This document shows positions 7,977 through 18,117 of a stretch of DNA of 26,050 nucleotides, in pieces (the first letter of the stretch is position 1; the number at the start of each line of letters is the position of its first letter). Under the pieces are notes generated by a model. That model was given only the letters and a program-made list of their open reading frames with translations. It was not told where the DNA came from and did not search any database. A program made the translations under genes and the position numbers. The DNA comes from a virus. The stretch lies in IMG/VR virus record IMGVR_UViG_3300046011_003628, positions 1 through 26,050 of that record. The stretch is one strand, 5' to 3'.

Positions 7977-8058
7977 CTGTAACATTTGTTACAGGGCAGT
8001 CAACTGTAACAGCCTGTTACAGTACGTAACATTGTTACAGTTTGTAACATTTGTTACA
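7977..8058. promoter_or_regulatory. Cluster of four TGTAACA/TGTTACA palindromes (putative operator array)
   Basis: Four inverted repeats are seen: 7977-7994 (8-bp arms, spacer TT), 8003-8023 (10-bp arms around one C), 8026-8038 (GTAACA-T-TGTTAC) and 8043-8058 (TGTAACA-TT-TGTTACA). Their centres are about 28, 19 and 18 bp apart. The cluster lies between the divergent ruvC-like gene and the recombination operon, upstream of the promoter at 8076-8105, and starts 8 bp from the ruvC-like ATG. This placement fits an operator or activator array controlling both directions. The binding protein is unknown; candidates in the window are the ParB-like protein (18119-18946), the ribbon-helix-helix-like protein (11079-11357) and the small winged-helix proteins. 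Confidence 0.7.
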
Positions 8059-16010: not shown

Positions 16011-16238
16011 ATGCAGATCACACCAACCACCGGTTCTTACCTGGCACAAGACACAATCACCATCGAACCCGTACGCCAAGACCCACCCTTTACCATGTAC
16101 GGTCTTCTGCCGGATGCCAAGGACGAGGCCATGAAGAAAGCTCTGACGGCTCTGCTCCTTTGGGAAGAGATGATGCCCAAGACTGCCGCACGACTAGTCC
16201 GTGAAGAGGCTATCGAAGCGCTCCAGAAGTATGTCTAA
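16011..16238 (+). CDS. Hypothetical protein (75 aa)
   Basis: It starts three bases after the winged-helix gene, behind AAAGGA. The N-terminus is polar and Thr-rich; the C-terminus is a helix (EAMKKALTALLLWEEMMPKT, then REEAIEALQKYV). No domain is recognised. Its end overlaps the nuclease gene by 8 bp. Confidence 0.55.
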   Translation: MQITPTTGSYLAQDTITIEPVRQDPPFTMYGLLPDAKDEAMKKALTALLLWEEMMPKTAARLVREEAIEALQKYV

Positions 16239-16527
16239 TTACCGGGACAAGAAGCTCCTGGAGGTGGTCAGGGAATCCCCATGCCAGATGTGCGGGATAA
16301 AAGACCAGACAATCTGCGCGGCACACAGCAACCAGCTCAGGGACGGGAAGGGTAAGGCCATCAAAGCCCATGACTTCCGCCTGGCAGCGCTCTGTTACAG
16401 GTGCCATTCCCGTATAGACCAGGGGGCGGACATGAGCAAAGAGGAAAGACTGGAGGCATGGGAGGCAGCGCACCGGGCGACCATAGGCTGGCTGTTCCTG
16501 AACGAAAAGCTAAAAGTATTGTCCTAG
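16231..16527 (+). CDS. DUF1364-like HNH-type nuclease
   Basis: A 98-aa protein starting at ATG 16231. SPCQMCG, AAHSNQLRDGKGKAIKAHD and ALCYRCHSRIDQG arrange two CxxC-type pairs and histidines as in the phage DUF1364/Ref-like small nucleases. EERLEAWEAAHRAT follows. Relatives in lambdoid phages sit near recombination genes and act on DNA. It is the last gene of the rightward run of small genes, followed by a hairpin (16532-16546) and an intrinsic terminator. Confidence 0.78.
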   Translation: MSNYRDKKLLEVVRESPCQMCGIKDQTICAAHSNQLRDGKGKAIKAHDFRLAALCYRCHSRIDQGADMSKEERLEAWEAAHRATIGWLFLNEKLKVLS

Positions 16528-16531
16528 GGGG

Positions 16532-16546
16532 GCGTAGGTGCTACGC
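16532..16546 (+). repeat. Small hairpin GCGTAG-GTG-CTACGC
   Basis: A perfect 6-bp stem with a 3-base loop lies five bases after the stop of the nuclease gene. It has no T-run, so it is not a terminator by itself; it may protect the mRNA 3' end or act with the true terminator downstream. Confidence 0.5.
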
Positions 16547-16587
16547 TGATGGTGTTTCATGGTTTTACTCTCCTCCCTCACAGGGTT

Positions 16588-16626
16588 AGATCCAGGTTGA
16601 TTCCCCTCGCCCTGGATCTTTTTTTT
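16588..16626 (+). terminator. Rho-independent terminator of the small-gene operon
   Basis: AGATCCAGG (16588-16596) pairs with CCTGGATCT (16611-16619), and the sequence continues as a run of eight T. The stem is perfect. It ends the rightward transcript that includes 13787-16527. Confidence 0.9.
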
Positions 16627-16640
16627 ACCTATCATAGGTA
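16626..16640. repeat. Palindrome TACCTA-TCA-TAGGTA
   Basis: A perfect 6-bp inverted repeat begins on the last T of the terminator. It could be an operator or part of the next RNA structure; no further copy was seen. Confidence 0.4.
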
Positions 16641-16641
16641 C

Positions 16642-16715
16642 GGGGCCAGGCGACGGCTCGGCGTCGTTAAACAGCCCGTATCCTTTGGCAAAAGGTGCAA
16701 ATGAATCCTGGCCCC
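16642..16715 (+). ncRNA. Structured element closed by a 9-bp stem with two inner hairpins
   Basis: GGGGCCAGG (16642-16650) is the exact complement of CCTGGCCCC (16707-16715). Inside are two more perfect hairpins: CGACG/CGTCG (16651-16666) and CCTTT/AAAGG (16682-16695). The result is a compact three-way-junction shape of 74 nt. It does not fit a tRNA cloverleaf. It lies after a terminator and before a promoter, so it may be an RNA processed from read-through, a DNA structure, or the leader of a longer transcript. Confidence 0.45.
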
Positions 16716-16723
16716 TCCTTCAC

Positions 16724-16738
16724 TGGTAAAATTTACCA
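16724..16738. promoter_or_regulatory. Palindrome TGGTAAA-A-TTTACCA (putative operator)
   Basis: A perfect 7-bp inverted repeat ends six bases before the -35 box of the small-RNA promoter, a usual place for an activator or repressor site. Confidence 0.5.
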
Positions 16739-16744
16739 CTCTGC

Positions 16745-16773
16745 TTGGAACTTTTCTCCAGCTTTGCTATCCT
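16745..16773 (+). promoter_or_regulatory. Sigma70-like promoter with extended -10
   Basis: TTGGAA at 16745-16750 and TATCCT at 16768-16773 are separated by 17 bp, with TGC directly before the -10 (extended -10). It precedes a structured noncoding segment rather than a gene. Confidence 0.6.
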
Positions 16774-16779
16774 ACGGTT

Positions 16780-16915
16780 GTCGGAAGTGACGCTCCGGCA
16801 TTTGGCGAACACCTTTAAGACCCAGAACCTCCTAGAGAGGGCTTGTAGTCATCGTTTGGTGTTCGCCCGATGCTGGCCTGTCAAGCCCAAGTCCTCCCTA
16901 GGGGGTTTTTCTTTT
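16780..16915 (+). ncRNA. Candidate ~135-nt structured small RNA
   Basis: A promoter (16745-16773) and a terminator bracket this segment. The core is a long interrupted stem: CCGGCAT (16795-16801) with ATGCTGG (16870-16876, one G-U), a 2x2 internal loop, and then GGCGAACACC (16804-16813) with GGTGTTCGCC (16858-16867). The 44-nt apical part holds a small CCTC/GAGG hairpin (16828-16840). The 3' end is CCTCC-CTA-GGGGG (16893-16905) followed by TTTTTCTTTT. Open frames here read as Arg/Cys-rich sequence without protein character. I do not recognise a known RNA family. The target or role (antisense, riboregulator, decoy) is unknown. Confidence 0.55.
16893..16915 (+). terminator. Intrinsic terminator of the small RNA
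   Basis: The stem CCTCC/GGGGG has a CTA loop and one T-G pair, and is followed by TTTTTCTTTT. An alternative outer pairing of GCCCAA (16885-16890) with TTGGGC (16914-16919) would sequester the T-run, so the site could switch between two folds. Confidence 0.55.
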
Positions 16916-17230
16916 GGGCGCTCCGACTGCGGTCTGTGTGGACGGGGTCTCAACGCCAGCGCACTGACCAAAGATCTGAAACTGGGGGAAAGCTGCGGAA
17001 GAATCAGAACGGGGTGGCGAAGCTAGTGCCCCAGCAGCGAACGACTGGCGAGTCAAAGCGGCTCCGGCGGACAGACTTTGTAAAGGCCACCAGATCAACT
17101 GTAACATCTGTTACAGTAAGACGATCTGGGATGGCTGAGTCTTGCCCACCAGCAGACAGGTGTCGTTAAGTAGTTCTACGAGATAGCTTAAAGATTAAAA
17201 ACAACAAAGGGGGGTAGCTCCCTCAAAATT
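16916..17230 (+). other. Noncoding leader-like region before the replication operon
   Basis: No convincing gene is seen in this ~315-bp stretch; two open frames crossing it are Arg/Ser-rich and lack ribosome sites. It contains a nested stem: GCTGC (16992-16996) with GCAGC (17034-17038) enclosing GGGGTG with GTGCCCC (17011-17032). It also has a GACT-GGCG-AGTC hairpin (17043-17054) and a TGTAACA palindrome framed by CCAGATC/GATCTGG (17090-17129). It may be the 5' leader of the operon or a further structured RNA. Confidence 0.45.
17098..17117. promoter_or_regulatory. Palindrome with 9-bp arms, TGTAACA family, nested in an outer repeat
   Basis: ACTGTAACA and TGTTACAGT flank TC. The site is enclosed by a second inverted repeat, CCAGATC at 17090-17096 and GATCTGG at 17123-17129, so either a large DNA cruciform or an RNA hairpin of two stacked stems can form. 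Confidence 0.6.
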
Positions 17231-17234
17231 ATGG

Positions 17235-17267
17235 TGTAACATTGTTACAGGGTGTAACATAGTTACA
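17235..17267. promoter_or_regulatory. Two tandem TGTAACA palindromes before the PP-loop gene
   Basis: TGTAACA-T-TGTTACA at 17235-17249 and TGTAAC-ATA-GTTACA at 17253-17267 lie just upstream of the ribosome site (AGGAGAG) and ATG at 17281. They match the cluster before the recombination operon, so the two operons probably share a regulator. I see no clear -35/-10 pair here. Confidence 0.65.
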
Positions 17268-17280
17268 GACAGGAGAGAAC

Positions 17281-18117
17281 ATGGATCCGTTTAAGATCTC
17301 AGAGCCGACCGTCATTTCATTTTCTGGCGGGCGTACCTCGGCCTACATGCTCTGGCGCGTGCTGCAAAGTAATGGCGGGCTTCCTTCTGAGAGCATTGTC
17401 TGCTTCGCCAACACGGGCAAAGAGATGGAAGAAACCCTGCGGTTCATCGACCGCTGCGGGCGTGAATGGGGCGTCGAGATCCACTGGCTGGAGTATCGAT
17501 ATCATGAAGAGCAGCGCCAAAGATTCAAGCGCGTAACCTTTGAGACGGCAAGCAGAGACGGCGAGCCCTTCTTTGAACTGATAGACCAGAACGGTAGCCC
17601 GTACCTTCCCAACCCTGTAGCCCGCATCTGCACGGCAAAGTTAAAGATCAGGACGATTCACAACTATGTCCGGTCTCTTGGGTGGGATCACACAGAGAAT
17701 GAAGACTGGGTCGGTATCCGAGCTGACGAGCAGCGACGCGCAGCCAAGATAGACCGCAGCCGCACCCCATTGGTCACGGCAGGTGTAACCAAAGAGACCG
17801 TATCAGAGTTCTGGAAGGCTCAGACTTTCGATCTTGAGCTGCCGAACATGAACGGCGTCACCATGCATGGGAACTGTGACCTGTGTTTTCTTAAGACCCC
17901 AAATCAAATCTTAAGCCTCATCAAAGAGAAGCCAGACCGAGCGCTCTGGTGGATCAAGATGGAGAACCACGCCCAGACCAGCAACAAAACCTTTGGAGAC
18001 GGGGCCAGGTTTAGAAAGGACATGCCAAGTTATAAAGAGTTACACCAGTACGCCTTAAACCAGCAAGACATGTTTGATAACAACCAAGAAGCTATTCCCT
18101 GTTACTGCGGAGATTAA
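17281..18117 (+). CDS. PAPS-reductase-like PP-loop protein (IbrA-like)
   Basis: A 278-aa protein with an N-terminal PP-loop, ISFSGGRTSAYM (residues 12-23), which binds and splits ATP in the adenine-nucleotide alpha-hydrolase superfamily. FANTGKEMEETLRFI (42-56) follows, as in PAPS reductases. Cysteines at C117 (ICTAKLKI), C199 and C202 (GNCDLCFLK), and C274 and C276 (CYCGD) could hold a metal or Fe-S cluster. AGGAGAG before ATG 17281 sets the start. The family includes true sulfate reductases, DndC of DNA phosphorothioation, and phage or prophage IbrA. The next gene encodes a ParB-like protein, the same partnership as IbrA/IbrB. A sulfate-assimilation role is unlikely in a phage; regulation or nucleic-acid modification is more plausible. 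Confidence 0.82.
   Translation: MDPFKISEPTVISFSGGRTSAYMLWRVLQSNGGLPSESIVCFANTGKEMEETLRFIDRCGREWGVEIHWLEYRYHEEQRQRFKRVTFETASRDGEPFFELIDQNGSPYLPNPVARICTAKLKIRTIHNYVRSLGWDHTENEDWVGIRADEQRRAAKIDRSRTPLVTAGVTKETVSEFWKAQTFDLELPNMNGVTMHGNCDLCFLKTPNQILSLIKEKPDRALWWIKMENHAQTSNKTFGDGARFRKDMPSYKELHQYALNQQDMFDNNQEAIPCYCGD

Follow-up and report, generated by a model that had tools for sequence, protein, structure and literature searches.

Genes and signals around the segment

The window, by which we mean the whole analysed stretch of 26,050 bases, is an environmental virus record; the virus infects bacteria and is known solely from environmental DNA. The segment flagged by the initial annotation (16724–16915) has an HNH endonuclease gene upstream (16201–16527, phrog_131) and a phosphoadenosine-phosphosulfate-reductase-like gene downstream (17281–18117), and ParB-like, helicase and primase genes lie further downstream. 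The gap between the two neighbouring genes, 16528–17280, is without a convincing gene. Within it, an ordinary intrinsic terminator (AGATCCAGG...CCTGGATCT followed by T8, at about 16588–16627), folded here and kept with changes in two relatives (L092 and L105), probably closes the upstream operon. From the promoter to the 3′ end of the RNA described below, all features lie on the plus strand.

Directly 5′ of the promoter, positions 16651–16700 hold a hairpin, TAAA and, later, GGTGCAA, a layout that we take to be like the Pistol ribozyme motif. By its Rfam score (17.9 bits against a gathering threshold of 34.5) the segment falls outside the Pistol family; its hairpin is retained with both-sided changes in four relatives (L062, L092, L103 and L105). 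Further, an inverted repeat, TGTAACATNGTTACA, occurs at 8025–8039, 17235–17249 and 17253–17267 of the window, preceding two genes. It has six strand matches at no more than two mismatches, where 0.13 are expected, and is likely a phage operator. The unstranded palindrome TGGTAAAATTTACCA (16724–16738) had also been proposed as a possible operator. The sequence is present, but it is seen only in the window and its near relatives (L062, L097 and L236), and the operator idea was rejected.

The promoter (16745–16773) combines a −35 element, TTGGAA (16745–16750), a 17-nt spacer and an extended −10 element, TGC-TATCCT (16765–16773), as the initial annotation had described it, and it recurs in relatives. 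Of 68 distinct upstream regions, 59 reached a promoter score of at least 8, compared with 81 of 680 shuffles, and in 53 of those 59 the −10 element ends exactly 6 nt 5′ of the conserved RNA's first base. This fixed distance across relatives makes position 16780, where the conserved block and the H0 and P0 pairings described below begin, very probably +1.

Recurrence and pairings of the 5′ domain

Viral loci were retrieved with exact words taken from the segment and from an Rfam RNA of the same predicted transcript, and with the product of the downstream gene as a protein query. Matching by regular expression identified 84 distinct copies of the segment, from which 40 copies under 0.9 similarity were drawn as the pairing set, the cut-off copy in L181 being omitted. 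A covariance model built from an alignment (A1) of 39 of these 40 gave 108 matches of at least 98.8 bits across 276 sources (11, 44 and 53 matches in three batches), a count that is no frequency, since the sources were largely picked for containing the words. The 276 sources were searched out of the window and 310 loci, with L001, L002, L109 (which shares a contig with L090) and 32 of the 39 cellular genome-contig loci left out. Counted without L090, a domain of about 130 nt starting at 16780 recurs in 107 loci, the window included, a few of which share one contig (e.g. L151 and L190). The covariation alignment was made from 85 sources chosen among those with matches and holds 82 distinct copies. 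One flagged hairpin has in this way led to a family of about 100 copies in the fetched loci, with precise and testable pairings.

Outside the fetched loci, blastn with four queries (the window segment, L172, L160 and L221) found no match in 50,697 phage records. The exact 17-mer GGCCTGTCAAGCCCRAG had 39 matches in cellular genome contigs, none of which (0/39) carried the module; because an exact word was used, this does not prove absence from cellular genomes. A scan of three cellular genomes for the Rfam RNA (RF02932) found none, but its control likewise gave nothing.

The predicted RNA opens with a local hairpin, H0 (16780–16799; GTCGG(A)/(T)CCGGC with TGAC in the loop), which was included in the model used to make the alignment; 99.5% of its cells are paired and three of its five pairs show both-sided changes. 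An outer stem, P0, pairs 16780–16785 with 16922–16927, the latter 3′ of the T-tract. Its cells are 93.4% paired, with both-sided changes at four of six pairs, and a clear partner is lacking in some copies (e.g. L148, L199, L235, L250 and L261). P1, formed by CCGG (16795–16798) and CTGG (16873–16876), is 100% paired and mostly invariant, with both-sided change at one pair, so its covariation support is thin. P3 is formed by CATCG (16850–16854) and CGATG (16868–16872), the latter adjoining the 3′ strand of P1; it is 95.9% paired, with both-sided changes at three of five pairs.

The remaining two stems are interleaved without a nucleotide in common. P2 is a hypervariable stem whose strands, 16804–16813 and 16858–16867, are both identified by covariation; the 3′ strand lies in the loop of P3. 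All eight counted pairs of P2 show both-sided changes, and its 7-mers pair at seven of seven positions in 38 of the 40 copies, compared with 36 of 1538 combinations in which strands were swapped between copies. P4, a 22-bp helix in the window, joins AGAACC...GCTTG (16824–16845), inside the P2 loop, to 16888–16909, which ends in the T-tract. In all 40 copies, 20–22 of its 21–22 positions pair, the strand lengths of 21 and 22 co-vary (a loop strand of 21 has a partner of 21), and 9 of the 22 pairs show both-sided changes. Bases are shared between H0 and both P0 and P1, and between an extended P1 and P3.

Taken together, P0, P2, P3 and P4 are paired in 94.2% of 3309 cells across the 82 distinct copies, while slid controls reach 31–53%. 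Both-sided changes occur at 24 pairs and in 430 cells, a level that none of 500 shuffles attained, and P2 and P0 were absent from the model used to make the alignment. The interrupted stem that the initial annotation had drawn at 16795–16876, the source of P2, was borne out: it is present, and relatives retain it through compensatory changes, the check that the initial annotation had itself set. Chance palindromes in a non-coding gap could find some encouragement in the folding of 16770–16925 alone, where the signal is modest (z = −2.9, with 1 of 200 shuffles folding equally well), but they are refuted by the covariation across the 82 copies (0/500 shuffles) and can be given hardly any credence. 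A coding reading of the segment was also rejected: the P2–P4 linkers differ in length by single bases, which argues against a protein. The reading as a structured phage RNA that has its own promoter and encodes no protein is well supported, and this part of the initial annotation stands.

The T-tract and the RNA beyond it

In 80 of the 82 distinct copies the T-tract, TTTTTCTTTT (16906–16915) in the window, contains five or more T. Together with the predicted P4 it has the shape of an intrinsic terminator, i.e. a stable, GC-containing helix with a T-tract directly behind it. The local terminator hairpin proposed earlier is not what recurs. A hairpin of at least 5 bp flush with the T-tract was found in only 14 of the 82 copies; the helix that is flush with it is the 20–22-bp P4, made with a strand from further upstream, which fits 40 of 40 copies. 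An earlier suggestion that the terminator could be locked by GCCCAA/TTGGGC pairing also failed, since a TTGGGC-like partner occurs in 16 of the 82 copies despite a nearly invariant GCCCAA. The hint of a switch was right in spirit, but the competitors would be P4 against P1 and P2, and H0 against P0 and P1.

The flagged segment ends at 16915, and the predicted unit runs further, with the P0 partner at 16922–16927 and an Rfam RNA, RF02932 (Betaproteobacteria-1), at 16931–17053 (91.3 bits against a gathering threshold of 49.4; model positions 1–120 complete). The latter begins 4 nt past P0 and 16 bases beyond the end of the segment. Membership in RF02932 applies to this downstream portion of the predicted transcript. 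The family model has 120 positions and starts past P0, so that the 5′ domain lies outside it; the 5′ domain is found also before other RNAs. No Rfam match was obtained for the 5′ domain (16780–16915), even at E ≤ 5 in a scan of 16500–17300. P0 and the adjoining Betaproteobacteria-1 RNA imply that functional transcripts would read through the T-tract. A strict scan of 16400–17400 for a second promoter, ahead of the Rfam RNA, was empty, yet this is a weak argument against one, because the scan also missed the 16745–16773 promoter, whose score lies under its threshold.

Conservation among copies runs beyond the Rfam model to about 17160. This 3′ continuation (17054–17160; GGGATGGCTGAGTCTTGCCCACCA and repeats), outside the Rfam model, was delineated by a 13-copy alignment and a direct repeat test. 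The analysis as a whole suggests that Betaproteobacteria-1 as defined in Rfam may cover no more than part of a longer RNA. Following GGCTCC, a short variable word is repeated directly close to the 3′ end of the Betaproteobacteria-1 RNA. A common word of at least 6 nt was found in 34 of 44 distinct copies, compared with 121 of 1844 swapped pairs; the direct repeat of the window itself is just 5 nt (17070–17074 and 17155–17159). Among the papers searched, none mentions RF02932 by name or treats Betaproteobacteria-1 as an RNA, and no account of the present 5′ domain was found; a motif survey of 2017 may be the source of Betaproteobacteria-1.

These features bear on the view of the initial annotation that the segment is a complete unit encoding a small RNA. 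Put in terms of the present pairings, a stand-alone RNA of about 130 nt would end at P4 as its terminator, the P3 loop or the P2 strands would serve as a seed, and the downstream RNA would be a separate gene. The domain does have its own promoter and a terminator-like end, and in two relatives (L202 and L212) an ORF begins directly past the T-tract. Against it, P0 links +1 to bases past the T-tract, the downstream RNA begins within 4 nt of P0, and P2, being hypervariable, does not resemble a conserved seed. In L202 and L212 the small ORF lies between P4 and the 3′ strand of P0, and P0 still matches across it (GTTGG/CCAAC and GTCGG/CCGAC, respectively). Given P0 and the adjoining Rfam RNA, the words complete and small are probably wrong, and we rank the stand-alone small RNA third among the explanations and consider it unlikely.

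The pairings can be sorted into two putatively competing nested folds of close predicted energy, T (P4, P3 and H0) and R (P1 and P2). By a calculation that ignores pseudoknots and co-transcriptional folding, T is lower in 33 of 40 copies, with a mean difference of −3.3 (sd 3.6) kcal/mol, and in the window itself R is predicted to be lower by 3.6 kcal/mol. We propose that the domain is a modular, bistable, terminator-like 5′ leader that gates a longer phage non-coding RNA, and we put the probability of this reading at roughly 0.5.

P2 and P4, having no nucleotide in common, could also coexist as a pseudoknot without any switching. The main rival builds on this and takes the domain as the static, pseudoknotted 5′ part of one large, ornate phage RNA, with the T-tract a part of the fold and neither termination nor switching. 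It agrees with P0 spanning the T-tract and covarying, and there are precedents among large, pseudoknotted phage RNAs whose 5′ parts vary: GOLLD and ROOL are described as such (PMC12286853), and being phage-borne, large and pseudoknotted is what they have in common with the present RNA. It does not account for a P4 of 21–22 bp flush with at least five T in nearly all copies, a terminator signature without structural reason. In addition, the P2–P4 linkers are 0–3 nt in some copies, so that full coexistence with a two-turn P4 would be strained, and the bases shared between H0 and P0 and between P1 and P3 mean that not all pairings can form together. We regard a static domain as possible but doubtful.

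A proposed gate, known systems and modularity

Under the gated-leader reading, transcription would start at 16780 and the nascent RNA would make H0 first. In fold T, 16824–16845 would pair with 16888–16909 to give the 22-bp P4 flush with the T-tract, and RNA polymerase would stop after about 130 nt, near 16910. P2 could close before the 3′ strand of P4 exists. In fold R, P2 and P1 would close first and trap the 5′ strand of P4 in a closed loop, around which the polymerase-bound 3′ strand could not wind fully (two turns), and read-through would result. The 5′ end could then pair past the T-tract as P0 and the Betaproteobacteria-1 RNA would be made, while failure of P2 would lead back to a stop near 16910. 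A gate is favoured by the position of the P4 5′ strand within the closed P2 loop, with polymerase on the 3′ end. We infer that P4 terminates, that P2 blocks P4 and that the choice is regulated, and a signal and a purpose likewise; nothing in the analysis suggests a ligand, an RNA or a protein as the signal for the leader. Whether an interleaved stem can restrain an intrinsic terminator by topology alone could be asked cleanly with single-molecule transcription.

Attenuators, and riboswitch expression platforms that contain an intrinsic terminator, use two rival folds early in a transcript, one of them a GC-rich helix with a U-tract. The present leader would likewise have two competing folds, one of the terminator type; here, however, the competitor would be an interleaved (pseudoknotted) stem instead of a shared antiterminator strand, and what follows is mostly non-coding RNA instead of coding sequence. 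We know of no ligand or antisense RNA for the present leader. The late leader of phage lambda (6S RNA, tR′) is also a short leader with an early terminator and a long transcript on read-through; it relies on the protein Q and has no such pseudoknot. The Rfam models of GOLLD and ROOL matched neither the window nor any of 34 further loci that were scanned over their full length at gathering. No function is known to us for either of these RNAs. If the switchable start is real and shared, it would offer an experimental handle on when and how large phage RNAs of the GOLLD/ROOL kind arise.

An element for processive antitermination or polymerase loading at the 5′ end of an operon, comparable to put- or nut-like elements, would act on polymerase and not on its own terminator. 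The leader position at +1, the strong structure and the varied downstream RNAs are in keeping with this; nothing points to a polymerase-binding loop, and the T-tract helix is located within the element itself. We consider such an element quite improbable.

The varied downstream RNAs are also what makes the proposed leader modular. Among the 107 copies, no fewer than five kinds of RNA follow the 5′ domain; by a rough assignment from short patterns, the downstream parts are RF02932-like (35), C (26), B (23), D (7), E (4), other (3) or too short to class (9). Rfam at gathering recognized only RF02932, in 3 of 20 loci, and nothing in 14 further loci. The analysis reveals further structured phage RNAs without an Rfam match. 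The type B downstream RNA is structured: 22 of 41 predicted pairs hold through both-sided changes in an alignment of 15 sequences, taken from the 17 listed references.

A similar layout is found with other 5′ modules. Among 43 Betaproteobacteria-1 loci, filtered for a true Betaproteobacteria-1 RNA and sufficient upstream sequence, 16 carry, immediately 5′ of this RNA, a helix of 17 bp or more that abuts a T-run, compared with 1 of 129 block shuffles, and in 11 of these 16 the module is unrelated in sequence but has the same layout. In a set of 14 unrelated modules, three of them chosen by eye, a P0 starts no more than 2 nt from the predicted +1 in 10 and a P2-like stem occurs in all 14, both stems being the best of many placements and counted with no shuffle control. 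The 5′ domain would then be a movable cassette set before different downstream RNAs. Tentatively, it may represent a class of interchangeable 5′ cassettes with an outer-stem strand at +1 and a long, terminator-type helix that an interleaved stem blocks topologically while polymerase holds the 3′ end; these cassettes would recombine freely with different downstream RNA bodies, several of which are outside Rfam. If true, this would mean RNA-only gating of phage non-coding RNA through knot topology.

Type D downstream RNAs (L164, L166, L184, L209, L221, L243 and L249) carry strings like GAGCCGGTGCAAATCCG and AGTCCGG..AGACCGG, which resemble parts of cobalamin riboswitches; this identity was rejected, as the scan of L166 gave no such Rfam match. 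A further conserved RNA body, type F (L118, 1872–2280; L120, 1600–2000), for which Rfam gives no match in these two loci, is found behind a sequence-unrelated 5′ module and beside the same reductase-like gene.
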